A stretch of 64,000 nt of DNA. Source: Pseudomonadota bacterium (GTDB taxonomy: Bacteria > Pseudomonadota > Alphaproteobacteria > Rhizobiales > MH13). Position 1 is the stretch's first letter, and the number at the start of each line of letters is the position of its first letter. The stretch is from the NCBI GenBank assembly GCA_039024915.1, contig JBCCPK010000001.1, positions 434,001 through 498,000 of the forward strand, in the 5' to 3' direction. Made by a program: the position numbers and the translations under genes. Positions 40,766 through 54,801 of this stretch are shown in pieces. The notes under the pieces are model-generated. The model was not told the DNA's origin and searched no databases. It saw nothing but the letters and a program-made list of their open reading frames with translations.

Positions 40766-41761
40766 CTAGGCGGACGCAACTGCCTCGTCTAGTTTTGCCA
40801 AGAGTTTTGCGCGGGTTTCCTCATCCATGAAGGCCGAGTTGAGCGCATTGCGCGTCAGCATGGCGCGCAAGGGGCGGTCGGCTCCGCCCAACAGGCGGAC
40901 CATCGTCGCGTAGTCCTTTTCAAGCGACGTATGAAAGTGTGGCGGGTCATCGGAGTTGGCGGTCACGAGCACACCTTGATTGTGCAGCCGCATGGCAGGA
41001 TGTGCTGTCTGCGATCGAACCGCTTGCAGCACCAAATTGGATTGCGGACAGACCTCGAGCGTGATTCCGCGCTGAACGAGCTCGGCCACCAGCAGCGTAT
41101 CGTCGGCAGCCCGGATACCGTGGCCAATGCGCGTGACACCCAGCGTGAGCGCATCACGGATGGTATCTGGCCCGGTCCATTCACCGGCATGGCACGTCAG
41201 TCCCAGCCCGGCCGCGGCACACCTGTCGAAAGCCGGGCTGGCATCGTTGACGGTTCCTGCCGTTTCAGAACCAGCAAGGCCAAAACCCACAATGTGGGAG
41301 TTCGACTTGGCTGCGTGCACGGCTATCTCGGCAGCCCGATAGATACTGACCTTGCCGAAATGACGGACACCCGTTGGGATGATGCGGCACGCAATGCCAT
41401 GCTCGGCTTCGGCGCGCTTCTGCCCTGCAGCAAGGGCATCGAGGTAGGCGACGGGGTCCACGCCGGCCTGTTCGGCATGGTCCGTCGATGCGAAAATTTC
41501 CGAATAGATCGTCCCCTGCTCCGCCAGAGCACAAGCATAGGCATAAGCGAGTTCGGCGTAATCCTCGGGCCGAGTGAAAACGCTTGCAGCCCGATCGTAA
41601 GCGCCGAGAAAACTGTCGAAATTCGACCAGATGTAGCCGTCATCTTCATCGATCAGTCCGGTGATGTCCTGCCCATTGCGTTGAGCCAGTTCACGCACGA
41701 GCTCTGGCGGCGCAGCCCCTTCGATGTGGCAGTGCAGTTCGGCGAGCGGAATGGCGATCAC
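40766..41761 (-). CDS. add: adenosine deaminase
   Basis: A 331-residue zinc enzyme that deaminates adenosine and deoxyadenosine to inosine. Metal ligands are His10 and His12 (AELHCHIEG), the later His in [10 protein letters not shown] and the Asp pair in NSDDPPHF; the catalytic Glu is in HAGE, and RIGHGIRA is also conserved. The start is a GTG at 41761 that overlaps the deoB stop (GTGA), so the two are coupled. Longer starts upstream lie inside deoB. The inosine formed would be split by the purine nucleoside phosphorylase encoded in the same operon. Confidence 0.94.
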
Positions 41762-42999
41762 AGGATCGACACCCCATGGCGCCCTGCAGGGAGACCAAGC
41801 CATTTCGCAGCCGTCTCCCCGATGTCTGCAAACGTGTCGAGCACGCCTGCATCACCTGGCTTGAGCCCATGGGCGGTTATCAGAACCGGGACCCGTTCGC
41901 GGGTGTGGTCGGTGCCGACCCAGCTGGGATCATTGCCGTGATCGGCGGTGAGGATCAGAAGATCGTCTTCGCGCAGCGCATTCAGGAGACTTGGGACCAG
42001 CTGATCAAAGCGCTCAAGCGCATCGGCATAACCGGCTATATTCCGGCGGTGACCAAACTCGCTGTCGAAGTCGACAAAGTTCGCGAAGATCAGATCACCA
42101 GGTTGTGCTTCTCTATCGCCGTCCACTGTCTCCAAAAGAACCTCGAATAGGCCTTTAATGCCAGGGCTCTTGCGAACCTCGTCGATCCCGTTCATCGCGA
42201 ATATATCGCCGAGCTTACCCAAGGCTATGACCTGCCCGCCCGCATCCTTGACCCGGTTGAGCACGGTCGGTTCCGGGGGCGGAATCGCAAAATCCTTGCG
42301 ATTGGAGGTGCGCTGGAACGTCTGCCCGGTTTCGCCGACGAATGGTCGTGCAATCACCCGGCCGATATTCATCGGATCGACAAGGCGACGCGCCACTTCA
42401 CAGATTTGATACAGGCGCTCGAGCCCAAAGTGGGTCTCGTGTGCCGCGATCTGGAAGACCGAGTCCGCTGAGGTGTAGACGATCGGCTTGCCGCTTGCGA
42501 TGTGCTCCGCGCCGAAGTCCGCCACAACAACTGTGCCCGATCCGTGAGCGTTACAGAGCGTGCCGGGCAAACTCGCTTCAACTATGAAAGCTTCCATCAA
42601 ATCGGGAGGGAAGACGGGCTGCGTCTTCGGAAAATAGCCCCAGTCGAACGGCACAGGAACACCCGCAATCTCCCAATGGCCAGAAGGCGTGTCTTTGCCC
42701 CTGGAAACTTCGCTTGCCGCCGCGAAGCGCCCCTTGAGGTCTGCTACACGCAAATCAGGATGGTCGACCCCGCTTGCGATTTCCATCGCACGGCCCAACC
42801 CAAGTCTTGCAAGGTTTGGGACGCGTAAGGGACCGGATCGAAGACCGACCTCATCGCCCCGACCCTCGGCGCAGGCTTCCGCAATGTGGCCCACAGTGTT
42901 GGCCCCTGTGTCGGGCACATCACCGTTGAAAAACCGGTCTGCATCAGGTGCGCCACCTATCCCGACACTATCGAGGACCACAAGAAAGACCCGGGCCAT
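41758..42999 (-). CDS. deoB: phosphopentomutase
   Basis: A 413-residue member of the alkaline phosphatase superfamily that interconverts (deoxy)ribose 1-phosphate and 5-phosphate. Conserved segments are [17 protein letters not shown] with the first metal Asp, [13 protein letters not shown] with the nucleophile Thr, [45 protein letters not shown] and [10 protein letters not shown]. It handles the sugar phosphates from PunA and DeoA. No deoxyribose-phosphate aldolase gene (deoC) follows in this window. The ATG at 42999 shares a base with the deoA stop. Confidence 0.96.
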
Positions 43000-44324
43000 C
43001 ACGACGTACCTGTGGGCGCCAAACGGCGATAGATCGCTGGTCGCGGATCAGACGCGTTACCGATGGTGACGGCCGCCGACACCCGGCGCTCGGCCTCGTC
43101 GGCTGCTTCAGGCGTACGCGCCAGAACCCGCGCCAGCGGCTCGCCCTTTTCGAGCCTTTGCCCGCAAGCGATGATGTTTGTGAGTCCGACAGCATGATCG
43201 ATGGAATCTTGCGGATTTATCCGCCCACCACCGAGAGCAACAACGGCGTTTCCAACCGCTCTGGTGTCCATTGCGACCACTTCGCCGGTCTGCGGTGCCG
43301 GAATGTCTCGGACGACTTCCGGGGTGATCAGGTATGCGCGGTAGCGCTCAACGAAGTCCGAAGGTCCACCTAACGTCTGCACCATACGCGCGAACATCTC
43401 TGCGGCTTGACCGTTATCCAGTGCATCAGCAACTTTCGACAGTGCGTTTGTTTCGTCCGCCAAGTCCCCCAAAACCAGCATCTCAGCACACAGGGCCAGC
43501 GTCACCTCACGCACGCGCGGGTCTTGGGCTCGGCCGGTCAAAAATTCCACGGCGGTCGCGACCTCAACTGCGTTTCCGGCAGCGTGACCCAGCACTTCAT
43601 TCATGTCGGTCAGGAGGGCCGAGGTCTTGGTTCCTGCGCCGTTCGCCACGGCCACAAGACTGTCCGCCAGCGCTTCGCTTTGCGCATGGGAAGGCATGAA
43701 AGCGCCCGAGCCGGATTTGACGTCCAGCACCAAGCCATTGAGGCCCGCAGCAAGTTTCTTTGAGAGGATGGATGCGGTGATCAGGTCGATGCTTTCGACC
43801 GTCGCTGTCACGTCCCGCACGCCATAAAAGCGCTTGTCCGCAGGCGCGAGGCTCGCGGTCTGCCCTATGATCGCGCACCCGCACGCTTCGACGGTTCTCC
43901 GAAAGGTCTCATTGTCAGGTTGGGTCTGATAGCCGGGAATGGAGTCCATCTTGTCGAGCGTGCCGCCCGTATGGCCCAAACCGCGTCCGGATATCATGGG
44001 AACGTAACCACCGCATGCTGCGACGATCGGGGCGAGCATCAACGACAGATTGTCGCCAACGCCTCCCGTTGAGTGCTTGTCGAGCGCGGGACCATTGAGA
44101 TGCGACCAGTCGAGGACATCGCCGGAGTCGCGCATCGCCAGCGTCAGCGCAACCCGCTCGTTCATCTGCATGCCTTGAAAGAAAACAGACATGGCAAACG
44201 CCGAGATCTGGGCGTCGGTCACACCTCCGGATGTGATGCCATCGACCAGGAAACCAATCTCATCGGTTGTCAGCGTGCCGCCGTCGCGCTTCTTGGCAAT
44301 CAACTCTTGGGGAAGGAAGTCCAT
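42999..44324 (-). CDS. deoA: thymidine phosphorylase
   Basis: 441 residues. Phosphorolysis of thymidine and deoxyuridine gives the base and deoxyribose 1-phosphate. The N-terminal helical part ([21 protein letters not shown]) precedes the phosphate- and substrate-binding motif [24 protein letters not shown] and [21 protein letters not shown]. The C-terminal domain is typical of nucleoside phosphorylase class II ([14 protein letters not shown]-like segment; [22 protein letters not shown]). It sits 30 bases after punA and is coupled to deoB. Confidence 0.96.
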
Positions 44325-44354: not shown

Positions 44355-45158
44355 TCAACTGGCGGCGCGATCAGCAACCAGGGCGCGGATCAGACGGCTG
44401 AGTTTGGGAACAATGGTTGCGCCGACATCTTTGGTTTCATGGTGCGAGAGCGCGTCACCCGTCATGCCAGCACCCAGGTTTGTGATCGACGAGATGCCCA
44501 GCACCTTTATATCGTGCAGCCGCGCAAGGATGGTCTCGGGCACTGTGGACATGCCGACAGCGTCCATCCCCAAGATGCGGGCCATGCGAATCTCAGCAGG
44601 CGTCTCGAATGACGGACCAAGAAACCAGCCATAGACCCCTTCGTGCAAATCGATTTTTTGTTCGGCGGCAATTCGCTTGGCGATGGAACGCCATGCGGGG
44701 TCGTAAGCATCGACCATATTGGCGAAGCGCCCATCACCTTCAACGCCGATCAGTGGGTTGCGCCCGGAGAAATTGATATGGTCGGAGATCAGCATCAGCG
44801 CGCCCGGCCCCATTTCTTCATGCAACGAGCCGGCAGCGTTCGTCAGGATCAGGTGCTCAACGCCAAGCGCCTTCAGTGTTGCAATGGGGGTCGCCATCGC
44901 ATCGGCTGACCCGGTTTCATAGGCATGTACACGCCCCGCAAGCACCGCCACCTCGACGCCTTCGAGCTTCCCTATCACCAGTTCGGCCGCATGAGATGAA
45001 ACGGTCGAAAGCGGGAAATGCGGCAGGTCCGTGTAGGGGAAATGGGTCGCGCCCTCGATTTGGTTCACCAGACCACCCAGGCCGGATCCAAGTACCAGGC
45101 CAAGCTTCGGCGCCGCGTCGGGAAGCCGAGCTCGAATGACGGAAGCGGCGTCCGACAC
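44355..45158 (-). CDS. punA: purine-nucleoside phosphorylase (trimeric class)
   Basis: 267 residues. Splits inosine, guanosine and their deoxy forms into base and (deoxy)ribose 1-phosphate. Motifs of the trimeric PNP/MTAP family: the phosphate loop LGSGLGGL, the SSHAAELVIG and AGRVHAYE segments, LILTNAAGSL, LISDHINFSGRNPLIG, GPSFETPAEIRMAR, DAVGMSTVPE and the base-contact region SITNLGAGM. It is two bases after cdd and 30 before deoA, all on one transcript. Confidence 0.95.
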   Translation of the reverse strand: MSDAASVIRARLPDAAPKLGLVLGSGLGGLVNQIEGATHFPYTDLPHFPLSTVSSHAAELVIGKLEGVEVAVLAGRVHAYETGSADAMATPIATLKALGVEHLILTNAAGSLHEEMGPGALMLISDHINFSGRNPLIGVEGDGRFANMVDAYDPAWRSIAKRIAAEQKIDLHEGVYGWFLGPSFETPAEIRMARILGMDAVGMSTVPETILARLHDIKVLGISSITNLGAGMTGDALSHHETKDVGATIVPKLSRLIRALVADRAAS

Positions 45159-45160
45159 GT

Positions 45161-45592
45161 CTACTCCTCCACCAAATTAAACGCGTGGGGCAGCAAGTCC
45201 CCGATGGTTGTCTCAAGCATCACGGTCTCCGGCGACACAATGATTACCGGTGTTTGTGCGCTTTGGGCGAACTCTGCAATGCGCTGCCGGCAACCGCCGC
45301 AAGGAGAGCAAAGGTCCCATGGATCGGTTTCAGGTTGATGATCAGCTCGTCCACCGGCGACCGCAACAGCGAGGATGCGGCGTTCACCGGCGAGGGCCAT
45401 GGCTGAGATCGCCCCCGCCTCTGCACATGTGCCTTGAGGGTAGGCCGCGTTTTCGACGTTACACCCAGGGTAGACGACACCATCGGCGCCCAAGATCGCG
45501 GCTCCGACCCGGTAGCCCGAGTACGTGGCGTAGGCCGTTTCGCGGGCAGCGCGAGCGGCCTTGATAAGCGCCTCACTTTGCTCGGGCGACAT
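45161..45592 (-). CDS. cdd: cytidine deaminase
   Basis: A 143-residue tetrameric-type zinc deaminase (cytidine and deoxycytidine to uridine forms). Zinc ligands are the Cys of the TCAEAGA motif, whose Glu is the proton shuttle, and the two Cys of SPCGGCRQR. The substrate-binding NVENAAYP segment and YSGYRVGAAILG are also present. The gene begins one base after the upstream permease stop, so it is tightly linked to the transporter genes. The uridine formed feeds the phosphorylase and upp steps. Confidence 0.95.
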   Translation of the reverse strand: MSPEQSEALIKAARAARETAYATYSGYRVGAAILGADGVVYPGCNVENAAYPQGTCAEAGAISAMALAGERRILAVAVAGGRADHQPETDPWDLCSPCGGCRQRIAEFAQSAQTPVIIVSPETVMLETTIGDLLPHAFNLVEE

Positions 45593-45593
45593 C

Positions 45594-46565
45594 CTAGCGT
45601 TCCTTTACATAAGGGACGCCACCTGCTTTCGGGGGCTCAGCCTTACCGATAAAGCCGGCCAAAAGGACAACGGTCAAAATGTACGGCAGAGCCTGAATGA
45701 TCTGCACGGGGACTTCACCAATGCCTGGGAATTCATAGCCCTGCAGGCGAATACCAAGCGCATCAAGGAAGCCAAACAGCAAGCACGCATAGAGCACCGG
45801 GACTGGTTTCCATTTGGCGAAGATCAATGCCGCAAGTGCAATGAACCCTTTGCCGGCAGACATGTTGGGGACGAAGCTCGCCGACTGCGCAGTGGACAGA
45901 TAGGCGCCGGCAAATCCACATAAGACACCGCAAATGATTACGGCCTGATAGCGCATGAGGGTGACCGATATGCCTGCGGTATCGACCGCTGCGGGGTTCT
46001 CACCGACCGCACGCAACCGAAGCCCGAAGCGCGTGCGGAAGATCACGAACCATGTGACGGCCACAAACGCAAAGCCCAAATAAACAAGCAGATTGTGCCC
46101 GGAGATGAGTTCCTCATAGACCGGCCCGAGGAACGGCACGCCAGCAAGCGCCTCTGCCGCGGGCCATTCGATCGGCAGGAAACGCGCTTCGGTATCAAGG
46201 CGGGGCGTGCGACCACCCTGGCTGAAATAGGCATGCCCGATCAATGCGGTAAGGCCAGCGGCCAGGAAGTTGATAGCCACGCCCGACACGATTTGGTTGC
46301 CTCGTGCCGTGATGCAGGCAAAGCCATGGACCAGTGCCAGCGCAACCGAAATGGCGATACCTGCCAACAGGCCAAGCCAGACGTTCCCGACGACTGCGCC
46401 GACAGCGGCGGCGGCGAACGCAGCTGCGAGCATCTTTCCCTCAAGACCTATATCGAAGACCCCTGACCGCTCCGAATACAGGCCCGCCAATGCAGCAAAC
46501 AGAAGCGGCATGGAAAGGCGGACGGTCGAGTCGAGTAAAAGAATAAAGCTCTCGAAGGTTCCCAT
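45594..46565 (-). CDS. ABC transporter permease, nucleoside type (NupQ-like)
   Basis: A 323-residue inner-membrane permease of the branched-chain/ribose superfamily (BPD_transp_2), about eight to ten helices. Typical elements are LSMPLLFAALAGLYSERSGVFDIGLEGKM near the start and RLRAVGENPAAVDTAGIS, the coupling-helix EAA-like loop contacting the ATPase. With the second permease, the double ATPase and the BMP lipoprotein-like binding protein it forms a nucleoside importer, as known for NupNOPQ/BmpA-type systems. The gene runs 18 bases after the larger permease. Confidence 0.93.
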   Translation of the reverse strand: MGTFESFILLLDSTVRLSMPLLFAALAGLYSERSGVFDIGLEGKMLAAAFAAAAVGAVVGNVWLGLLAGIAISVALALVHGFACITARGNQIVSGVAINFLAAGLTALIGHAYFSQGGRTPRLDTEARFLPIEWPAAEALAGVPFLGPVYEELISGHNLLVYLGFAFVAVTWFVIFRTRFGLRLRAVGENPAAVDTAGISVTLMRYQAVIICGVLCGFAGAYLSTAQSASFVPNMSAGKGFIALAALIFAKWKPVPVLYACLLFGFLDALGIRLQGYEFPGIGEVPVQIIQALPYILTVVLLAGFIGKAEPPKAGGVPYVKER

Positions 46566-46582: not shown

Positions 46583-47731
46583 CTACTCAGCCGCCTGCGC
46601 GCTCTCGGCCGCGCGTTCGCGGGCGCGGCGGCGGTCATAAAGGGCGTTGAAGAAGCCAACGATGGCCGGACGGAACAAACCTTCCAGCGCGCCAGCAAAC
46701 AGAATGACGAGGCCCTGAATGGCAACGATCATGTCGCGCGTGATAGAGGGCATGGAGAAGGCGAGTTCTGCCCCGCCCTGGTAAAGCGCGCCAAACAGCA
46801 AAGCGGCAAGTACGATTCCGATGGGGTGACCTCGGCCCATAAGCGCAACGGCGATACCGACAAAGCCCGCCCCGCCGGCGAATTCGAGGATCAGCCGACC
46901 GTGTACACCCATGATCTCGTTGATGGCCATCATACCCGCAAGCGCGCCGGAAATCGCCATTGCGATCATGATCAGACGCGGGGGGCGCATGCCTGCATAG
47001 ACTGCCGCGGTCGGGTTCTGACCGAGCGTACGCAAACGATAGCCAAGCCGGGTGCGCCATATGAGAACCCAGACAAGGAACGCCATGACCAGCGCGAGGA
47101 AGAAGGAGATATTGAGCTGCGCGCCGCCAAGATTTGCACCGAACCAATCGAACAGCCAATCGAGCCGCGGGATGCGCCCCCCGTCTTCAAAGGTGCGCGA
47201 TTCGGGCGCCATGGCCCCCGGTTGCCGGAACACATTGACCAGCATATAGGTCATCAACGCGGCGGCAATGAAGTTGAACATGATCGTGGTGATCACGATG
47301 TGGCTGCCGCGCGTCGCTTGCAGATAGCCCGGAACAAACGCCCAGAAAGCGCCGACGGCGCAGCCAGCAGCGAGTGCAAGCGGTGCTGCGATGAACCATG
47401 GCACATATTGGTCGAGCATGAGCGCGACGATGGCGACCCCGAGCCCCGCAACATAGGCCTGCCCTTCGCCACCAATGTTGAAGAGACCGGCGTGGAAGGC
47501 AACGGCGACCGCAAGACCGGTGAAAATGAAGTTGGTTGCGTAGTAGAGGGTGAAGCCAACGCCCTCACCGTAACCGAAAGCCCCGAAGAGCATCAGTTCG
47601 ACAGCCTCAATCGGATTTTCTCCGACAGCTATGACGACAAGGCCCGCAACAAAAAATGCGGCCGCGAGGTTCAAAAGCGGGATCAGGCCGTAGTCGACCC
47701 ATTTGGGCAGTTCGCCGCGGGACAGGCTCAT
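46583..47731 (-). CDS. ABC transporter permease, nucleoside type (NupP-like)
   Basis: A 382-residue membrane subunit, longer than its partner. Features are FTGLAVAVAFHAGLFNIGGEGQAYVAG, GSHIVITTIMFNFIAAALMTYML, a hydrophilic periplasmic insert (about 165-200) and the cytoplasmic coupling loop RLRTLGQNPTAAVYAGM. The C-terminus is Ala/Arg-rich. It pairs with the permease encoded next to form the translocation pore. Upstream, 13 bases away, is the unrecognised secreted protein, an unusual insertion in this type of operon. Confidence 0.93.
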   Translation of the reverse strand: MSLSRGELPKWVDYGLIPLLNLAAAFFVAGLVVIAVGENPIEAVELMLFGAFGYGEGVGFTLYYATNFIFTGLAVAVAFHAGLFNIGGEGQAYVAGLGVAIVALMLDQYVPWFIAAPLALAAGCAVGAFWAFVPGYLQATRGSHIVITTIMFNFIAAALMTYMLVNVFRQPGAMAPESRTFEDGGRIPRLDWLFDWFGANLGGAQLNISFFLALVMAFLVWVLIWRTRLGYRLRTLGQNPTAAVYAGMRPPRLIMIAMAISGALAGMMAINEIMGVHGRLILEFAGGAGFVGIAVALMGRGHPIGIVLAALLFGALYQGGAELAFSMPSITRDMIVAIQGLVILFAGALEGLFRPAIVGFFNALYDRRRARERAAESAQAAE

Positions 47732-47744
47732 AGCATCCGACCCT

Positions 47745-48659
47745 TCACGGTGCCGCCTCCAAATAGCCCTGTTCGACCAGGTGACGCGTCAAAAACTCGA
47801 CGAAAGTGAAACTGCGCAAATACTGTTCGTCGCAGGAAAAGCGCGACCCGCCCTTCAGGCAAACCTGGTAGGGCCAATCGACAGTGGCGTTGGCAAGCCT
47901 GAGGCGTTCGATCGCCTCTTCGCCGTGGCCCAAACGGGCGCGCATCGCTGCCCAGCCGGCAAGCGCGCCTGGCCGCTCGATATTCTGCTCAGGTATGAAA
48001 TCGCCGATCTCCTCGGTGAAAGCCGACGCATACCCGTCGTCCGCGGAAACATCCAAAACCTCACCATCGCGAAGCACGAAAATCTGCGGCGGTGCCCAGG
48101 ACCCCGCATAACCGTCGAAAGTATACAGAAACGACTGGTCGCGAACGGTGATCTCACCGACGCCATCGCCATTGTGGTCGGACAGATAAAAACCACCATC
48201 GTACAAGCCGAACTCTTCCAGCCACCAAGTCCCCTCTGCCTGAACCCACGCAATCTGAATGCGATCGCAACAATGCGCGCCACCCGTGTAGCTCGTCGCG
48301 ACGAGCTCAGGTTCCGGCGTGTCAGGATCAAGCTGCGCCAGCGTCACGCGAACCGGCAGGAAATCGAAATAGGTTGGTTCGCCCTCGAATTGCATCACCT
48401 GGTTGTCATTGTGGAAGAGCGTGAAGATCGGGGTGACGGTGTCGTGTTCGCTCGGGCGATCGGTCACCCGCAACGTCCAGTTTTCAAAGGTCATCTGACG
48501 TAAGGTGTCGTCTTCCACCAGATCGATCGAGACACCGGAGAAACCCTCTTGTGAATCCGCCTGCCCTTTTTGTGCCAGAGAGTTCGTCGCCATCAGGCCG
48601 CTTACGAGCAGCGCAACAAATGCAAAAGCCAGCCGAGTAAAGCGGGAACAAGTGGTCAT
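47745..48659 (-). CDS. unrecognised secreted protein inside the nucleoside ABC operon
   Basis: I do not recognise this 304-residue protein. A signal peptide (about 1-29, cleavage near SLA-QK) predicts export. The mature part is acidic and aromatic-rich and looks beta-structured: FENWTLRVTDRP, TPIFTLFHNDNQVMQFEG and a TSYTGGAHCCDRIQIAWVQ segment with adjacent cysteines. DHNGDGVGEITVRD resembles a calcium-binding DxNxDGxxE loop of the FG-GAP/EF-hand kind. The C-terminal 80 residues look helical, with a second Cys pair (CLKGGSRFSC). Its ATG overlaps the ATPase stop (ATGA) and the permease follows 13 bases later, so it is made with the transporter. A periplasmic partner or an enzyme acting on nucleosides is conceivable, not shown. 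Confidence 0.8.
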   Translation of the reverse strand: MTTCSRFTRLAFAFVALLVSGLMATNSLAQKGQADSQEGFSGVSIDLVEDDTLRQMTFENWTLRVTDRPSEHDTVTPIFTLFHNDNQVMQFEGEPTYFDFLPVRVTLAQLDPDTPEPELVATSYTGGAHCCDRIQIAWVQAEGTWWLEEFGLYDGGFYLSDHNGDGVGEITVRDQSFLYTFDGYAGSWAPPQIFVLRDGEVLDVSADDGYASAFTEEIGDFIPEQNIERPGALAGWAAMRARLGHGEEAIERLRLANATVDWPYQVCLKGGSRFSCDEQYLRSFTFVEFLTRHLVEQGYLEAAP

Positions 48660-50248
48660 TCGGCCGCCTCAGGCGCCGCTTTGGCGGGCGTATCCTGGTT
48701 GGCGGCCCCGTCGATGCCCGCCATCATCAATCCGATTTCATTCTCATCGGTTTCATGCGGCAAACGCTCACCAACAATTTCACCGCCACACATGACGAGG
48801 ATCCGGTCGGAAAGACCGAAGATTTCGTCCAGTTCAACAGACACAAGCAGGACCGCCTTTCCTGCGTCGCGCATCTCGATCAGACGCTTATGGATGAACT
48901 CGATCGCGCCAATATCCACCCCACGGGTCGGCTGCCCGACCAACAGAACATCGGGGTCCTCCTCCATCTCGCGAGCGATGACGATCTTTTGCTGGTTACC
49001 GCCTGAGAAATTGGCGGTCTTCAACCGGCAATTGGGGGGGCGGATGTCGTATTTTTCGATCTGGCTTCTGGCGTGCGTTCGGATGGCGTCGACGCTCATG
49101 ATCATCTTACCGCCGATATCGGACGCATCATGATAGCCAAGAACCGAGTTTTCGTTCTCTTCGAAGGTCTTCACCAAACCCATGCGCAGGCGGTCTTCAG
49201 GGACGTGGCCCATGCCCAAGGTACGGGCTTCTGCTGGATCACCGGTGTGCGACAGGATCTTCCCATCTATGAGCACGCGCCCAGACGCCGGAGCCTCAAT
49301 CCCCGAAACAGCCTCGAGAAGCTCGGATTGACCATTTCCGGAAACGCCTGCAATTCCCACGATCTCACCGCGTCGCACGGTGAAGGAAACATCCTTGACC
49401 CGTTCAACGCCAAAGCGATCACGAACAGTCAGGTTCTCCACCACCAGAACACCGTCGCTAGGTGCGGCTTCACCTTTGTCAACTTGCAGCAGAACCCTGC
49501 GGCCCACCATTTGTTCGGCGATCTCGGCGGGGCTGGTGTTGGCGGTTTGCAAGCTTGCGACCATCGCGCCACGCCGCATCACCGACACCTCATCGGTGAC
49601 CGCCATGATCTCCCGAAGCTTGTGCGTGATCAACAAAATGGTCTTACCCTGATCGCGAAGCTGCCGCAGGATCTTGAAAAGGTTGTCGGCCTCCTCAGGG
49701 GTTAGCACGCCCGTGGGCTCATCGAGGATGAGGATTTCGGCACCTCGGTACAGCGCCTTGAGGATTTCGACGCGCTGCTGAAGACCGACAGAAAGCTCCG
49801 AGACAATAGCGTCCGGGTCGACCGTCAGACCGTAAGTTTCGGAAAGGTGCTTAAGCTCCTGCCGCACTTTCTCCCGCCCGGTCTGGAGGGTAGCAGCGCC
49901 CTCTGCCCCGAGCATCACATTCTCGATCACCGTGAAATTATCCACCAGCATGAAATGCTGATGGACCATCCCGATCCCGTTGGCGATGGCATCGTTGGAG
50001 GAACGAATGGATGCCTTTTGCCCAGCAACGTAGATGTCACCCTCATCGGCTTCGTAGAAGCCGTACAGAATGGACATCAAGGTCGATTTTCCTGCTCCGT
50101 TCTCGCCGACTATCCCATGAATGGATTGCCGCGCGACCTTGAGATCGATGGCCCGGTTCGCGTGGACAGCACCAAAGCGCTTATCAATACCGCGCAATTC
50201 GATTGCGAGCGGTGTGGAGGGCGTTTCAGGTTGAGGTTCAGCGCTCAT
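48656..50248 (-). CDS. ABC transporter ATP-binding protein, tandem ATPase (NupO-like)
   Basis: A 530-residue cytoplasmic protein with two ABC domains, as in sugar and nucleoside importers. Domain 1 has Walker A GENGAGKSTL, signature LSVGLQQRVEILKAL and Walker B LILDEPTGVL. Domain 2 has a degenerate Walker A (GVSGNGQSELLE, without the usual Lys), signature FSGGNQQKIVIAREM and VGQPTRGVDIGA in place of a full Walker B. This asymmetry is normal for the family. The frame opens at 50317, but the ATG at 50248 gives a standard N-terminus. Its stop overlaps the start of the unrecognised secreted protein. Confidence 0.95.
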   Translation of the reverse strand: MSAEPQPETPSTPLAIELRGIDKRFGAVHANRAIDLKVARQSIHGIVGENGAGKSTLMSILYGFYEADEGDIYVAGQKASIRSSNDAIANGIGMVHQHFMLVDNFTVIENVMLGAEGAATLQTGREKVRQELKHLSETYGLTVDPDAIVSELSVGLQQRVEILKALYRGAEILILDEPTGVLTPEEADNLFKILRQLRDQGKTILLITHKLREIMAVTDEVSVMRRGAMVASLQTANTSPAEIAEQMVGRRVLLQVDKGEAAPSDGVLVVENLTVRDRFGVERVKDVSFTVRRGEIVGIAGVSGNGQSELLEAVSGIEAPASGRVLIDGKILSHTGDPAEARTLGMGHVPEDRLRMGLVKTFEENENSVLGYHDASDIGGKMIMSVDAIRTHARSQIEKYDIRPPNCRLKTANFSGGNQQKIVIAREMEEDPDVLLVGQPTRGVDIGAIEFIHKRLIEMRDAGKAVLLVSVELDEIFGLSDRILVMCGGEIVGERLPHETDENEIGLMMAGIDGAANQDTPAKAAPEAAE

Positions 50249-50276
50249 GCCGTTGGCCGCAGGTCCGCCAGGAAAG

Positions 50277-50309
50277 CGCTGGTTCCCGGCTTCGGGCTGG
50301 GAACCAGCG
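50277..50309 (-). repeat. 11-bp intercistronic hairpin after the binding-protein gene
   Basis: CGCTGGTTCCC (50277-50287) and GGGAACCAGCG (50299-50309) are perfect inverse repeats with an 11-base GC-rich loop, in the 71-base gap between the binding-protein and ATPase genes. No T-run follows on the minus strand. It probably protects the upstream mRNA from 3' decay or partly blocks read-through, so the binding protein is made in excess, as is common in ABC operons. Confidence 0.7.
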
Positions 50310-50319
50310 GCTGCCAATT

Positions 50320-51324
50320 CTAGCTGTCAGTGGCCGGGCACGTGTTGTCCGACATGTAGTCGTGGACAACAACATCACCGGCAATGATAGCTTCCTTCGC
50401 CGCATCCACTGCGGCGCGCATATCATCTGTGATCAGCTCTTCATTGTTCTCGTCAAGCGCCCAATCAACGCCGCCTTCAGCAAGGCCAAGAACTTCGAAA
50501 CCGTTGGTCCACTCCCCGTTTTGCGCATCGGTGAAGGCGTCGGAAACCGCAACATCAACTCGCTTGAGCATGGAGGTCAGAACCGACCCTGGCTGCAGAC
50601 CGTTCTGGTTAGAATCAACGCCAATGCCAAGAATGCCAGCATCCGCCGCAGCCTGGAGAACACCGATACCGGTACCACCTGCCGCATGGAAGACGACATC
50701 GGCGCCAGCTGAAACATGGCTCTGGGTGATCTCGCCGCCGCGCACCGGATCGTTCCACGCGGCCCCTGTGGTGCCTGTCATAGCGGTCAGAACCTCGGCA
50801 CCATCGCTGACCGACAGCACGCCTTCAGCGTAACCGCAGGCGAACCGACGGATCAACGGAATGTCCATGCCGCCAACAAAGCCGACAGTATCCGACTGTG
50901 ACGCCATCGCGGCGAGAACACCCACCAGGTAGGACCCTTCATGCTCCTTGAAGACAATCGACCGGACATTGGGTTGCTCCACAACCATGTCGACGATCGC
51001 AAAGCGTGTGTCAGGGAACTCTTGGCTGACGGTATCGACGGCAGTGCCGTGCGAGAACCCGATCGCGATGATCGGATCATGGCCGCGGCGGGCGAAGTTG
51101 CGCAGTGCTTGCTCGCGTTGGCTGTCGTTCTGGATCTCGAAATCGACATACTCAATGCCGGTTTCGTCTTTAAAGGCCTCCGCGCCGGTGAACGCCGCTT
51201 GGTTGAAGCTTTCGTCAAAGCGTCCACCCAGGTCATAAACCACCGCAGGGTTGATGTCCTCGGCAATGGCTGGCGCTGTCAGCAGCGCGCCAAGGGCGGC
51301 CGTCGCAAGAAACTGCTTGATCAT
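50320..51324 (-). CDS. BMP family nucleoside-binding protein of an ABC importer
   Basis: A 334-residue periplasmic binding protein. A signal peptide (about 1-22, cleavage near AIA-ED) has no lipobox Cys. Family segments include VYDLGGRFDESFNQAAFTGAEAF, PIIAIGFSHGTAVDTVSQEFPDTRFAIVD, SYLVGVLAA, VGFVGGMDIPLIRRFACGYAEGV and GADVVFHAAGGTGIGVLQAA with GIGVDSNQ. This is the BMP/PnrA group that binds purine and pyrimidine nucleosides. The ATG at 51324 has a strong GGAGGTG Shine-Dalgarno sequence, fitting high expression; the longer frame to 51372 is unlikely. First gene of the operon running to upp. Confidence 0.94.
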   Translation of the reverse strand: MIKQFLATAALGALLTAPAIAEDINPAVVYDLGGRFDESFNQAAFTGAEAFKDETGIEYVDFEIQNDSQREQALRNFARRGHDPIIAIGFSHGTAVDTVSQEFPDTRFAIVDMVVEQPNVRSIVFKEHEGSYLVGVLAAMASQSDTVGFVGGMDIPLIRRFACGYAEGVLSVSDGAEVLTAMTGTTGAAWNDPVRGGEITQSHVSAGADVVFHAAGGTGIGVLQAAADAGILGIGVDSNQNGLQPGSVLTSMLKRVDVAVSDAFTDAQNGEWTNGFEVLGLAEGGVDWALDENNEELITDDMRAAVDAAKEAIIAGDVVVHDYMSDNTCPATDS

Positions 51325-51341
51325 TGTATTCACCTCCATCT

Positions 51342-51358
51342 GAACCCTTTTTGGGTTC
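51342..51358 (-). repeat. leader hairpin GAACCC-N5-GGGTTC
   Basis: Six-base perfect arms around an all-T (all-A on the minus strand) 5-base loop lie five bases upstream of the GGAGGTG ribosome-binding site of the binding-protein gene. As RNA it could stabilise the 5' end or affect ribosome entry; as DNA it could be an operator. Confidence 0.5.
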
Positions 51359-51374
51359 GGCCTTCCAGGCAATC

Positions 51375-51540: not shown

Positions 51541-51645
51541 CTGCCGCTTTCGCAGGCATCGTCGATGACCCATGCACCTGCGTTCGCGCAGGATAGGTCA
51601 CGCCATTTGGTTTGCACGGACGGGAAAACGCAGTAGAGCGTGTCC

Positions 51646-52071
51646 ATGGACAGCAATCTTTCCGGCGACCCTGACCGCCCCTCTAGCTTGACCTTGGCGC
51701 TCGTCGCGCATGACGCCAAAAAGGCAGCGATGGTCGAGTTTGCCATGCGGCACGCCGATGCGCTTAGCCAGCATGAGATCGTCGCGACGGGAACGACCGG
51801 CGGGCAGGTCAAGAAGGCTGCACCAAGCATTCCGGTGCGCCAACTCAAGAGCGGTCCGCTAGGAGGCGACCAGCAGATTGGCGCGATGATCGCTGAGGAC
51901 GCGATTGATGCGTTGTTTTTCTTTGTCGATCCGCTTTCTCCCATGCCGCACGACGTCGATGTCAAGGCGCTCATGAGGCTGGCCCTTGTTTATGACGTCC
52001 CGATGGCTCTCAACCCCGCGACGGCGGAAGCGCTTTTGTTCGATCTTGTAGCATCGGTTCGCGACCGCTAA
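51646..52071 (+). CDS. mgsA: methylglyoxal synthase
   Basis: 141 residues. Converts dihydroxyacetone phosphate to methylglyoxal and phosphate, a bypass of lower glycolysis under phosphate limitation or sugar-phosphate overload. Conserved features are [14 protein letters not shown] with a catalytic Asp, the phosphate-binding [23 protein letters not shown], and [25 protein letters not shown] with the second catalytic Asp and His. The start is the ATG at 51646; a GTG at 51640 is also possible. It is followed by glk 56 bases later and diverges from the nucleoside operon, whose products enter triose phosphate metabolism. Confidence 0.94.
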
Positions 52072-52127
52072 GGCAAAAGGATACCCATCTGTCGCGCCTC
52101 GTCGCGCCTTCATAATTGAACTCGCTC

Positions 52128-53165
52128 ATGCCCGATCGTCGCAGCCTTGATATCGTCACGCCCTTTCCCGTCTTGATCGCTGATCTTGGTGGCACGCACG
52201 CGCGTTTCGCTCTGGTCAGTGATTCCCATGCGACAGAGCAGGGGTTCGCTCAGGTGCGAACACGCGAGCATCCAGATGTTCAGAGCGCAATTCAAAGCGG
52301 GGTGCTCGATCAGACCTCGTTAATACCGAGAACAGCGATCCTTGCCGTCGCCGGTCCGACCCTCGGTGAGGCCTTCAAGCTGACGAATGCGGATTGGGTT
52401 ATTGAGCCAAAGCGGATCATGGACCAACTCGGCTTCGATTGCGTGATTGCGTTGAACGACTTTGAGGCCCAAGCGCTGGCGCTTCCCGACCTTACCGAAG
52501 ACGATTGGGTTCTGATTGGCGAGCAGCAGCCACCAAAGCGCGGCACCAAGCTTGTGCTTGGGCCTGGGACGGGTCTAGGCGCGTCCGTTCTGGTGGATAG
52601 CATGGGGATGTGGATTACGGTACCGGGCGAAGGCGGCCACATCGCGATACCAATCGAATCGGAAGACGATGATCGGCTGGTTGCCCACATTACGCAGGGT
52701 GGGCAGCACCGGCTCGGCGGAGAACAATTGGTTTCCGGTGACGGGCTTGAGCGCCTTTACCGTAGTCTTGGCGCACTCGAAGGTACGGACACCCCTTTGC
52801 AAAAGGCCGCTGACATCACGCAGGCCGCGCTGGCCGGGGAGCCGCTCGCGGTCCAATCAGTCGAGCGATTTGTCGTCTACATGGCCCGCGTCGCACGCGA
52901 ACTGGCGCTTACCGTCATGCCGGCAGGCGGCGTTTTCATAGCGGGCGGCATTGCTCCTAAGATCTTGCCGTTCATCGAGAACTCTGAGTTTCGCTCGATC
53001 TTCGAGGCTGCCTATCCGCATGAGGACAAACTCAGCGCGTTCCCGACCGTGGTGGTTACGCACCCGCGCCCGGCGCTTTCGGGATTAGGGAGCTTTGCCC
53101 GCACCCCAGGCCGTTTCATGGTCGATGTTGCAGAGCGTATGTGGAAGACAGGTGCCGACGTCTAA
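52128..53165 (+). CDS. glk: glucokinase
   Basis: A 345-residue ATP-dependent hexokinase of the bacterial Glk family. Motifs: phosphate-binding LIADLGGTHARFALV (about 16-30), the adenosine-contact VAGPTLGEAFKLTNADWVIE, LNDFEAQALAL with the catalytic Asp, VLGPGTGLGASVLVD and the sugar-binding PGEGGHIAIP. No ROK zinc motif is present. The frame opens with a TTG at 52116; the ATG at 52128 is used. Coupled by position with mgsA: glucose entry and methylglyoxal formation from triose phosphate. Confidence 0.94.
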   Translation: MPDRRSLDIVTPFPVLIADLGGTHARFALVSDSHATEQGFAQVRTREHPDVQSAIQSGVLDQTSLIPRTAILAVAGPTLGEAFKLTNADWVIEPKRIMDQLGFDCVIALNDFEAQALALPDLTEDDWVLIGEQQPPKRGTKLVLGPGTGLGASVLVDSMGMWITVPGEGGHIAIPIESEDDDRLVAHITQGGQHRLGGEQLVSGDGLERLYRSLGALEGTDTPLQKAADITQAALAGEPLAVQSVERFVVYMARVARELALTVMPAGGVFIAGGIAPKILPFIENSEFRSIFEAAYPHEDKLSAFPTVVVTHPRPALSGLGSFARTPGRFMVDVAERMWKTGADV

Positions 53166-53295: not shown

Positions 53296-54801
53296 CTAAC
53301 GATCTTCCGGCTTTTCGGTCAGTGACACGACATTGTCGGGCAGACGGTCGCGGTCAAGCGACAGCTCTTCCTCGACGGTCAACTCGTCGAGATGATCCTC
53401 TTCGCCAAGCAGGTCGTCGAGATCACTGGTCATTTGCGCATCAGCTTCGGAGAGTGGCTGGAACGACGAACGCCCTGCGGCGATCAGCTTCTGGTAATCG
53501 GCAACCAGTGATTTGAACTCTGATGCCTGCACCATCAACTCGTCATGCTTGATCTTATATTCCTCAAGCTTGCGATTTTCGGAGATCAGCGTCTCAACAC
53601 GCTGCTCGAGAATCTCTCGCTGCTTGCGCTGATGGTTCAAATCCGAGATCGCAGCGTTGTAGCGCAAATTGAGTTCGGCGACTTTGGTATTGGCGCGCGA
53701 GGCTTCATGCCGTTCGGTCTCTTTTGAACGCTGAAGCGAGTCCAATTTGGCCGTCACCGAGCGAAGCTGGGCTGTCAGGTCACGTATCTCGGAATTGAGA
53801 CTGCGAACTTCGTTTTCCGCTTCCTTCAGCGACTGCCGAAGTACGCGTCGCTCGGAGCCCAGATTGTCGATATCTGTCTTGAAACCGAACAGACGATTGT
53901 CGAACGTCCGGCGCTCATCTTCGTGTGCCTGCTTCATGAACTCTGCTTCTTCACGCAGCGTCTCGATTTCCGAGCGCGCGGCGGTCAAGGCGAGATTCAA
54001 TTGCGACAGTTCGCGCTGCGACGCCGAAAGCTCGTTGGCGTTGTTCTGCGAGCGCAGTGTCTCGTTTTCAAGAAGCGCGTTCGCTTCAGCAAGCGACTGC
54101 CGCAACTCGGTTTCGCGCTTGTTTTGGCTGTCGAGATCGTTTTTCAGGTCAACGATCTGGCGCTCTTGGCTTTCGTACCTGCGCGCATACTCATCGTTCT
54201 GCGAAACGAGTTCGGATATGCGGGCGTCCAGAGCGGCGATCTCTGTCGTCTTGCCTTCAATTGTGTCCAGATCATCGTTGCGCTGCTGGCGCATCGCTAG
54301 GATCGAAGAGCGGGCAACCTCGAGGGCGTTTCTATATTTCGAGGCGCGTTCTTTGAGGACCTGCAGCTCACCGGCATACTGATCGATCTGACGACCCTGC
54401 CGAGCAATCGTGTTGTCTTTCTCGATATTCGCGACAGACAACTTCGCGTTCTCGGACTGAATGCGTTTGTCAGCCTCAGCATCGATTTTTGACTGTTCGA
54501 TGAACTGTGCAAGCAGACCAGCCGACTTTTCAGAGTTCAGCAGAAGGGTCGAAATCTGCGAAAACGTATCTTCGATGTCGGTGACGCTTGAGGAGAGCAA
54601 ATCAAGCCGACGGTTGCGCTCACGAAACTTGATGTCCAGTGGCGAGGAAACCGGCGACATCTCGCTTGCTTCAAGACCTATGTCCTGCTCGGCAGCAGAT
54701 GTCTCGCCTGTCAGCGCGGAATTGAGGGCCTGAAGCTGCTCGGAGCGCTCCTCTTCCTTGCCCTGTTCATTTGGCTTTTTAGAATTTGAAAATAGGCCCA
54801 T
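53296..54801 (-). CDS. long coiled-coil protein, possibly intermediate-filament-like
   Basis: 501 residues, almost entirely predicted coiled coil from about 60 to 425. A short head (MGLFSNSKKPNEQ, acidic and Ser-rich to about 55) and an acidic tail (LDDLLGEEDHLDELTVEEELSLDRDRLP) flank the rod. Heptads are rich in Leu, Glu, Arg and Ser, with breaks near 160 and 400 (SILAMRQQRNDDLD; KIKHDELMVQAS). There is no signal peptide or membrane helix, so it is cytoplasmic. This architecture is like crescentin and other bacterial filament-forming rods, but coiled-coil similarity is unspecific and SMC-fragment-like or polarity roles are possible. It converges on glk and has a 467-base gap upstream. Confidence 0.8.
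   Translation of the reverse strand: MGLFSNSKKPNEQGKEEERSEQLQALNSALTGETSAAEQDIGLEASEMSPVSSPLDIKFRERNRRLDLLSSSVTDIEDTFSQISTLLLNSEKSAGLLAQFIEQSKIDAEADKRIQSENAKLSVANIEKDNTIARQGRQIDQYAGELQVLKERASKYRNALEVARSSILAMRQQRNDDLDTIEGKTTEIAALDARISELVSQNDEYARRYESQERQIVDLKNDLDSQNKRETELRQSLAEANALLENETLRSQNNANELSASQRELSQLNLALTAARSEIETLREEAEFMKQAHEDERRTFDNRLFGFKTDIDNLGSERRVLRQSLKEAENEVRSLNSEIRDLTAQLRSVTAKLDSLQRSKETERHEASRANTKVAELNLRYNAAISDLNHQRKQREILEQRVETLISENRKLEEYKIKHDELMVQASEFKSLVADYQKLIAAGRSSFQPLSEADAQMTSDLDDLLGEEDHLDELTVEEELSLDRDRLPDNVVSLTEKPEDR

Follow-up and report, generated by a model that had tools for sequence, protein, structure and literature searches.

The window analysed here, a stretch of 64,000 nucleotides, carries between the ATPase and permease genes of a nucleoside importer a gene whose product, which we call the GGAHCC protein, is most likely a recruit to the operon, an accessory protein of the periplasm that acts by binding or in the manner of an inhibitor. 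In its more specific form, that of a Sec-exported protein which would bind and not catalyse, resemble the periplasmic inhibitors PliI and XAC2610 and serve as an envelope helper made with the importer, this is our preferred reading, held tentatively and at less than even confidence. The GGAHCC family is widespread, appears to be exported, and has no Pfam or NCBIfam model.

The gene and its operon

The open reading frame, on the minus strand, has its ATG at 48659 and its stop at 47745-47747. It is a real coding gene and not a chance reading frame, because it is under purifying selection (dN 0.35 and dS 1.53 against the nearest relative) and because homologues occupy the same slot in other genomes. 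The operon reads, in order, BMP protein, ATPase, GGAHCC-family gene, permease 1, permease 2 and then the nucleoside enzymes from cytidine deaminase to adenosine deaminase:

50320..51372, minus strand, BMP-family nucleoside-type binding protein (PF02608, 2.1e-56)
48656..50317, minus strand, double ABC ATPase (family matches)
47745..48659, minus strand, gene of a predicted exported FG-GAP/PliI-like protein, 304 aa (ORF reading)
46583..47731, minus strand, permease 1, BPD_transp_2 (family match)
45594..46565, minus strand, permease 2, BPD_transp_2 (family match)
45161..45592, minus strand, cytidine deaminase (family match)
44355..45158, minus strand, purine nucleoside phosphorylase, PNP (family match)
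42999..44324, minus strand, thymidine phosphorylase (family match)
41758..43002, minus strand, phosphopentomutase (family match)
40766..41803, minus strand, adenosine deaminase (family match)

The stop of the ATPase open reading frame (50317-48656) and the start of the GGAHCC-family gene share 4 nt (ATGA), and 13 nt separate the gene from the start of permease 1 at 47731, as an earlier note on this DNA had described. The further claim of that note, that the protein is produced with the importer, is supported by this placement, an overlap and a short gap being consistent with co-transcription. Pfam and NCBIfam family searches found no cell-wall enzyme in the operon, and no cognate lytic effector gene lies beside the gene, whose neighbours belong to the importer and to the nucleoside enzymes.

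Within the genus, the GGAHCC protein of the window is 45-58% identical to those of three genus mates, as against 86-92% for the BMP protein and the ATPase and 87-95% for the permeases. The dN of its gene (0.35-0.52) compares with 0.03-0.11 for the BMP protein, ATPase and two permeases, and exceeds the values for the BMP protein and permeases by a factor of about 5 to 11; dS, at about 1.1-2.5, is near saturation (one pair of the GGAHCC gene gave no dS estimate). An identity of 45-58% versus 86-95% argues against a core subunit and, taken together with the absence of the gene from most such operons (see below), the fast divergence indicates that the GGAHCC protein is not a core subunit of the importer. 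The earlier proposal of a new accessory subunit is thus retained in part: the protein is encoded with the importer in a few lineages, but the divergence and an adjacency in only 5 of 112 genomes speak against a place in the core.

The family and the ATPase-permease slot

A single copy of the family is present in the genome of the window. Matches were found in 13 of 61 genomes (its own and 60 relatives), including 4/4 of the window genus, in 35 of the 249 genomes sampled from the order (query A1, a 14-row alignment gathered by whole-protein similarity, at E<=1e-8) and in 71 of 397 genomes with the 7-row alignment A4 (E<=1e-20). A pattern scan of named genomes yielded at least 585 pattern stretches, of which at least 426 were confirmed; the 80 best of these, which were kept, come mostly from Hyphomicrobiales, with some from cyanobacteria and one from Sphingosinicella. 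The window protein alone, used as query against genome contigs, found no relative, whereas an alignment query did. Phage records held no match to the family; nine plasmid records matched, three of them annotated as serine protease. The strings SGGAHCC and GGAHCC are absent from the papers that were searched, and the titles and abstract openings of the papers retrieved on nucleoside or BMP importers name no such protein. A common alphaproteobacterial, and partly cyanobacterial, family of putative exported proteins is thus absent from Pfam and NCBIfam, with a fold and a loop hypothesis that can be tested.

The slot between ATPase and permease is filled by the family in seven operons: four in the window genus (4/4 genomes, the window and three sampled mates), those of Oceaniradius stylonematis and a Phyllobacteriaceae MAG (L084, L071), and that of genome G210; in all of these the genes overlap or are near-adjacent. 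The gene is therefore not peculiar to one strain, a possibility that the earlier note had allowed for. In a Nitratireductor MAG (L092) a glyoxalase-like gene is followed by a GGAHCC relative and then by cytidine deaminase and PNP genes; transporter genes are not seen there because the contig starts just upstream.

Such linkage is the exception in the family as a whole. With adjacency read from match coordinates in the 249-genome sample, the family lies beside the permease in 5 of its 35 carriers, that is, in 5 of the 112 permease carriers. Among the best 80 of at least 426 loci, five adjoin nucleoside genes, a share that is biased upward because these loci were picked in order of their similarity to the window, and in 30 loci of the best A4 matches transporter genes were present in four (the genus) and in none of the other 26. 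Homologues do not stay within BMP operons: most are scattered without nucleoside genes, an outcome that the earlier note had named in advance as speaking against its reading. Seven recurring neighbours of the non-BMP relatives were scanned (TPP enzyme, short-chain dehydrogenase, Ku, radical SAM, LplA/B-type, glycosyl hydrolase 2 and TerB); all are lineage-specific, and these relatives therefore have no shared partner.

To judge the slot itself, 40 upstream regions were picked across families from the 112 permease-bearing genomes, with the window genus excluded and G210 knowingly included. The ATPase lies directly beside permease 1 in 38 of them (gap between matches -42 to 218 nt), in agreement with the earlier view that BMP operons do not normally have such a gene, and the remaining two contain the GGAHCC family (G210) and a glyoxalase-like gene (G032). 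Glyoxalase/VOC-like genes were thus seen both in the slot of G032 (L193:5248-5694, minus strand) and directly upstream of the GGAHCC relative in the Nitratireductor MAG (L092:165-689, plus strand), and the slot therefore accepts other inserts.

The family tree spreads the operon-linked members over two or three positions and gives them long stems; their grouping as one clade was not rejected (AU p 0.39, 7 of 86 rows), nor was it with 8 of 110 rows (AU p 0.79, in a test where the constrained tree scored 13.4 log units above the quick unconstrained one). The long rows L028_G, L029_G and L086_x were left out of the second family tree. For the ATPases of the seven carrier operons a single clade was rejected (AU p 0.001, 46 rows), the test becoming borderline without G210 (p 0.067), and the ATPases of L071 and L084 nest, with starred support, among those of operons without the gene. 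As the carrier ATPases do not form one clade, either the slot was entered repeatedly, or the gene moved between operons into it, or losses were many. The recurrence of the same slot across ATPase lineages is the best evidence for a functional tie to nucleosides, although it is not proof.

The domain architecture of the relatives varies. A W-x-x-x-A-S-type segment precedes the domain on its N-terminal side in 22 of the best 80 (of at least 426) loci. In relatives with this segment SPOR leads the Pfam matches (8 of 21 aligned and scanned, best 0.0017), below the cut-off in the one member whose cut-off was shown; PG_binding_1 and Trypsin_2 match L023 and also L101 (PG_binding_1 below cut-off in the latter), Trypsin_2 matches L027 and L109, and the other Pfam matches are scattered single hits. 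The window protein itself has no SPOR or peptidoglycan-binding match. Large proteins that fuse the beta domain to a trypsin-like protease were noted at L023:7331-9859 (minus strand), L101:3220-5919, L027:9282-10901 and L109:7605-9419; several have a SPOR-like N-terminus and two a peptidoglycan-binding match.

Conserved loops and predicted fold

The following features were assigned to the window protein:

48573..48659, minus strand, putative Sec-type signal peptide, residues 1-29 (hydropathy and alignment)
48042..48539, minus strand, predicted FG-GAP-type beta domain, about residues 41-206 (structure models)
48267..48284, minus strand, invariant GGAHCC loop, residues 126-131 (14/14 rows of A1)
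48153..48179, minus strand, calcium-binding-type loop DHNGDGVGE, residues 161-169 (sequence and alignments; FG-GAP_3 weak in relatives)
48090..48140, minus strand, conserved loop DxxFxYxFxxYAxSxxP, residues 174-190, between two strands (alignment and model)
47748..48041, minus strand, predicted helical C-terminal part with C267 and C276, residues 207-304 (model and alignment)

By hydropathy, residues from about 10 to 24 are hydrophobic, SLA|Q comes next, and no other such segment occurs further along; with the alignment, this suggests a Sec-type signal peptide, in line with the signal peptide read in the earlier note. The two cysteine pairs to which it drew attention, C130/C131 and C267/C276, are conserved in relatives, both being kept in 65/65 rows of alignment A2. 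However, 64 of those rows were fetched by a pattern containing GGAHCC, so that the motif is invariant there by construction and C130/C131 is fairly tested in A1 only, where G126-C131, with both cysteines, is invariant in 14/14 rows. Invariant in A2 without such selection are D161, D174, F177, Y179, Y184, S187, P190, C267, C276 and Y299; Y179 and Y184 (65/65 rows) lie downstream of the D161-E169 loop. The sequence DHNGDGVGE in that loop, likened before to a calcium loop, is of the DxDGDGxxE type and may well bind calcium.

Searches of Pfam and NCBIfam with the window protein returned 0 families at E<=1, and the PDB sequence search gave no credible match. Weak FG-GAP_3 matches occur in 13 of 65 members (best 0.005) and the FG-GAP match of L084 is below the cut-off (18.2 bits vs 26.9); the window protein has no FG-GAP Pfam match. 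AlphaFold2 with A2 modelled the whole protein at pLDDT 88.7 and pTM 0.83, and the core alone (residues 38-206, alignment A5) at pLDDT 92.5 and pTM 0.88. The modelled core forms a beta domain in which one pair of strands flanks the calcium-type loop (161-169) and the following pair flanks the long loop 174-190; from residue 208 to 296 the model is mostly helix. In a Foldseek search of the PDB (350,542 chains) PliI ranked first with both the whole model (E 0.022, prob 0.99, TMt 0.52) and the core model (E 0.019, prob 0.99, TMt 0.50), XAC2610 (4qtq) ranked seventh with the core (E 0.066, prob 0.63), and integrin FG-GAP propellers were among the matches; neither model had a match at E<=0.001. The second-look aligner VIA placed an integrin first for the whole model (Z 9.7). 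For the core, a mosquito salivary gland protein led at Z 8.8, with integrins level with it at Z 8.7, and scores of about 8 may reflect no more than a common arrangement; the 50 entries listed for either model include neither PliI nor 4qtq. On these models an FG-GAP/PliI-like fold is plausible.

PliI, the periplasmic inhibitor of i-type lysozyme (PF16743; 3od9, 4pj2), may resemble the window protein, itself presumably exported, in the predicted beta fold and in a calcium-like loop followed by a strand and a loop, and is its best PDB match by structure. The window protein differs in being about twice as large, with its helical C-terminal part, in an E value of only 0.02, and in the profile: PF16743 matches neither it (E<=1) nor anything in its own genome (E<=10). 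Against three PliI proteins, hhalign aligned the calcium loop alone (probability 1.7), and an ungapped profile scan produced two registers, calcium loop on calcium loop and GGAHCC loop on the TAGSGxY loop of PliI, of which the better reached 16.7 with one PliI protein, where the highest of 100 shuffles was 16.5; the other three sequences scored below their shuffle maximum. Because neither register clearly beats shuffles, we do not claim sequence homology with PliI, and the Ser and Tyr of its inhibitory loop have two candidate positions in the window protein and no confident one.

XAC2610, the immunity protein of X-Tfi against a lysozyme-like T4SS effector, is periplasmic, as the window protein is predicted to be. 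PMC10933484 describes in it a calcium loop at 151-159 and, after that, an inhibitory loop at 165-173 that contains the conserved Y170, an order of calcium loop, strand, Tyr loop and strand that the window protein matches; according to the same paper PliI, XAC2610 and Tsi1 use topologically equivalent loops, which connect strands 2 and 3 of a sheet common to the three. The two proteins differ in that no effector gene adjoins the window gene and no family model common to both was found, and the structural match has an E value of 0.066. FG-GAP repeats (PF13517, PF01839; integrin alpha propeller) share with the window protein the DxDGDGxxE-type loop and blade-like sheets, and integrins are prominent in the VIA alignment; the window protein falls under the Pfam cut-off, however, and has one clear loop and no seven-blade propeller.

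Candidate roles

In the preferred reading, the GGAHCC protein would be exported by Sec to the periplasm, where its FG-GAP-type beta domain, probably calcium-stabilised, would have a shape close to that of the peptidoglycan-hydrolase inhibitors PliI and XAC2610, and its helical C-terminal part would be held by a C267-C276 disulfide. It would most likely act by binding, not by catalysis, the GGAHCC loop (126-131) and the Tyr-rich loop (174-190) that follows the calcium loop docking onto an envelope partner, for which a cell-wall-acting enzyme or the wall is the most plausible candidate. In the window genus and a few other lineages its production with the nucleoside importer would make it a condition-specific envelope helper. 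Of the possible mechanisms this one, in the envelope, has the most support, which comes from a weak structural similarity. Counting against it are the Foldseek E values, all above 0.001, the PliI sequence tests, close to shuffles, and the absence of PF16743; so do the operon, which has no cell-wall enzyme, and the SPOR matches, weak in relatives and missing from the window protein. Loops that are nearly invariant across a family would also be unusual for inhibitors of fast-changing foreign enzymes. The SPOR-like, peptidoglycan-binding and trypsin-like domains of relatives are the only hints that may tie the family to the cell wall.

Next in probability, and itself unlikely, is a generally useful envelope protein that has nothing to do with nucleosides and came by chance to lie in a well-expressed operon. 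Its possibility is kept alive by the unrelated, lineage-specific surroundings of most relatives, by the glyoxalase-like insert in G032 and by the fast divergence; chance insertion, however, would not lead one to expect operons of more than one ATPase lineage to share the slot ahead of permease 1, or the gene to be kept across families. A dedicated accessory of nucleoside uptake, which would bind the BMP protein or the permeases, or hand over substrate, and so improve import, is about as unlikely, if marginally more so. The tight packing into one slot in the window genus, L071/L084 and G210, a slot otherwise empty in most sampled operons, the relative beside cytidine deaminase and PNP in L092 and the carrier ATPases, which are not one clade, all favour it, but 107 of the 112 permease-bearing genomes lack the family next door, the dN far exceeds that of the BMP protein and permeases, and most family members have no nucleoside neighbour. 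That the protein is a periplasmic hydrolase, be it a nucleotidase, a nuclease or another enzyme, and supplies nucleosides to the importer, we regard as improbable. Its presumed export, its place in a nucleoside operon and many near-invariant polar residues (His129, Asp161, Asp174, Tyr179, Tyr184) would suit such an enzyme, whereas the proteins closest to it in structure act by binding or as inhibitors and most relatives lie outside nucleoside operons; the substrate-preparing enzyme suggested in the earlier note gained nothing from the family and PDB sequence searches, which matched no enzyme family.

A bolder version of the preferred reading, that the GGAHCC family comprises new periplasmic inhibitors or regulators of wall-cutting enzymes, repeatedly wired into the nucleoside-scavenging operon of some alphaproteobacteria, is likewise improbable. 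If true, a cell feeding on the contents of lysed neighbours would also make protection against co-released lytic enzymes, and a wall enzyme as partner would join nutrient scavenging to envelope protection; if, instead, the link to nucleoside uptake is real, BMP-type importers would gain a further periplasmic part.

Two other loci lie near the operon. MGS-like (methylglyoxal-synthase type) and glucokinase genes adjoin it in divergent orientation (window 51640-53165, plus strand), and window 53296-54801 (minus strand) encodes a 501-aa protein with coiled-coil type matches only.
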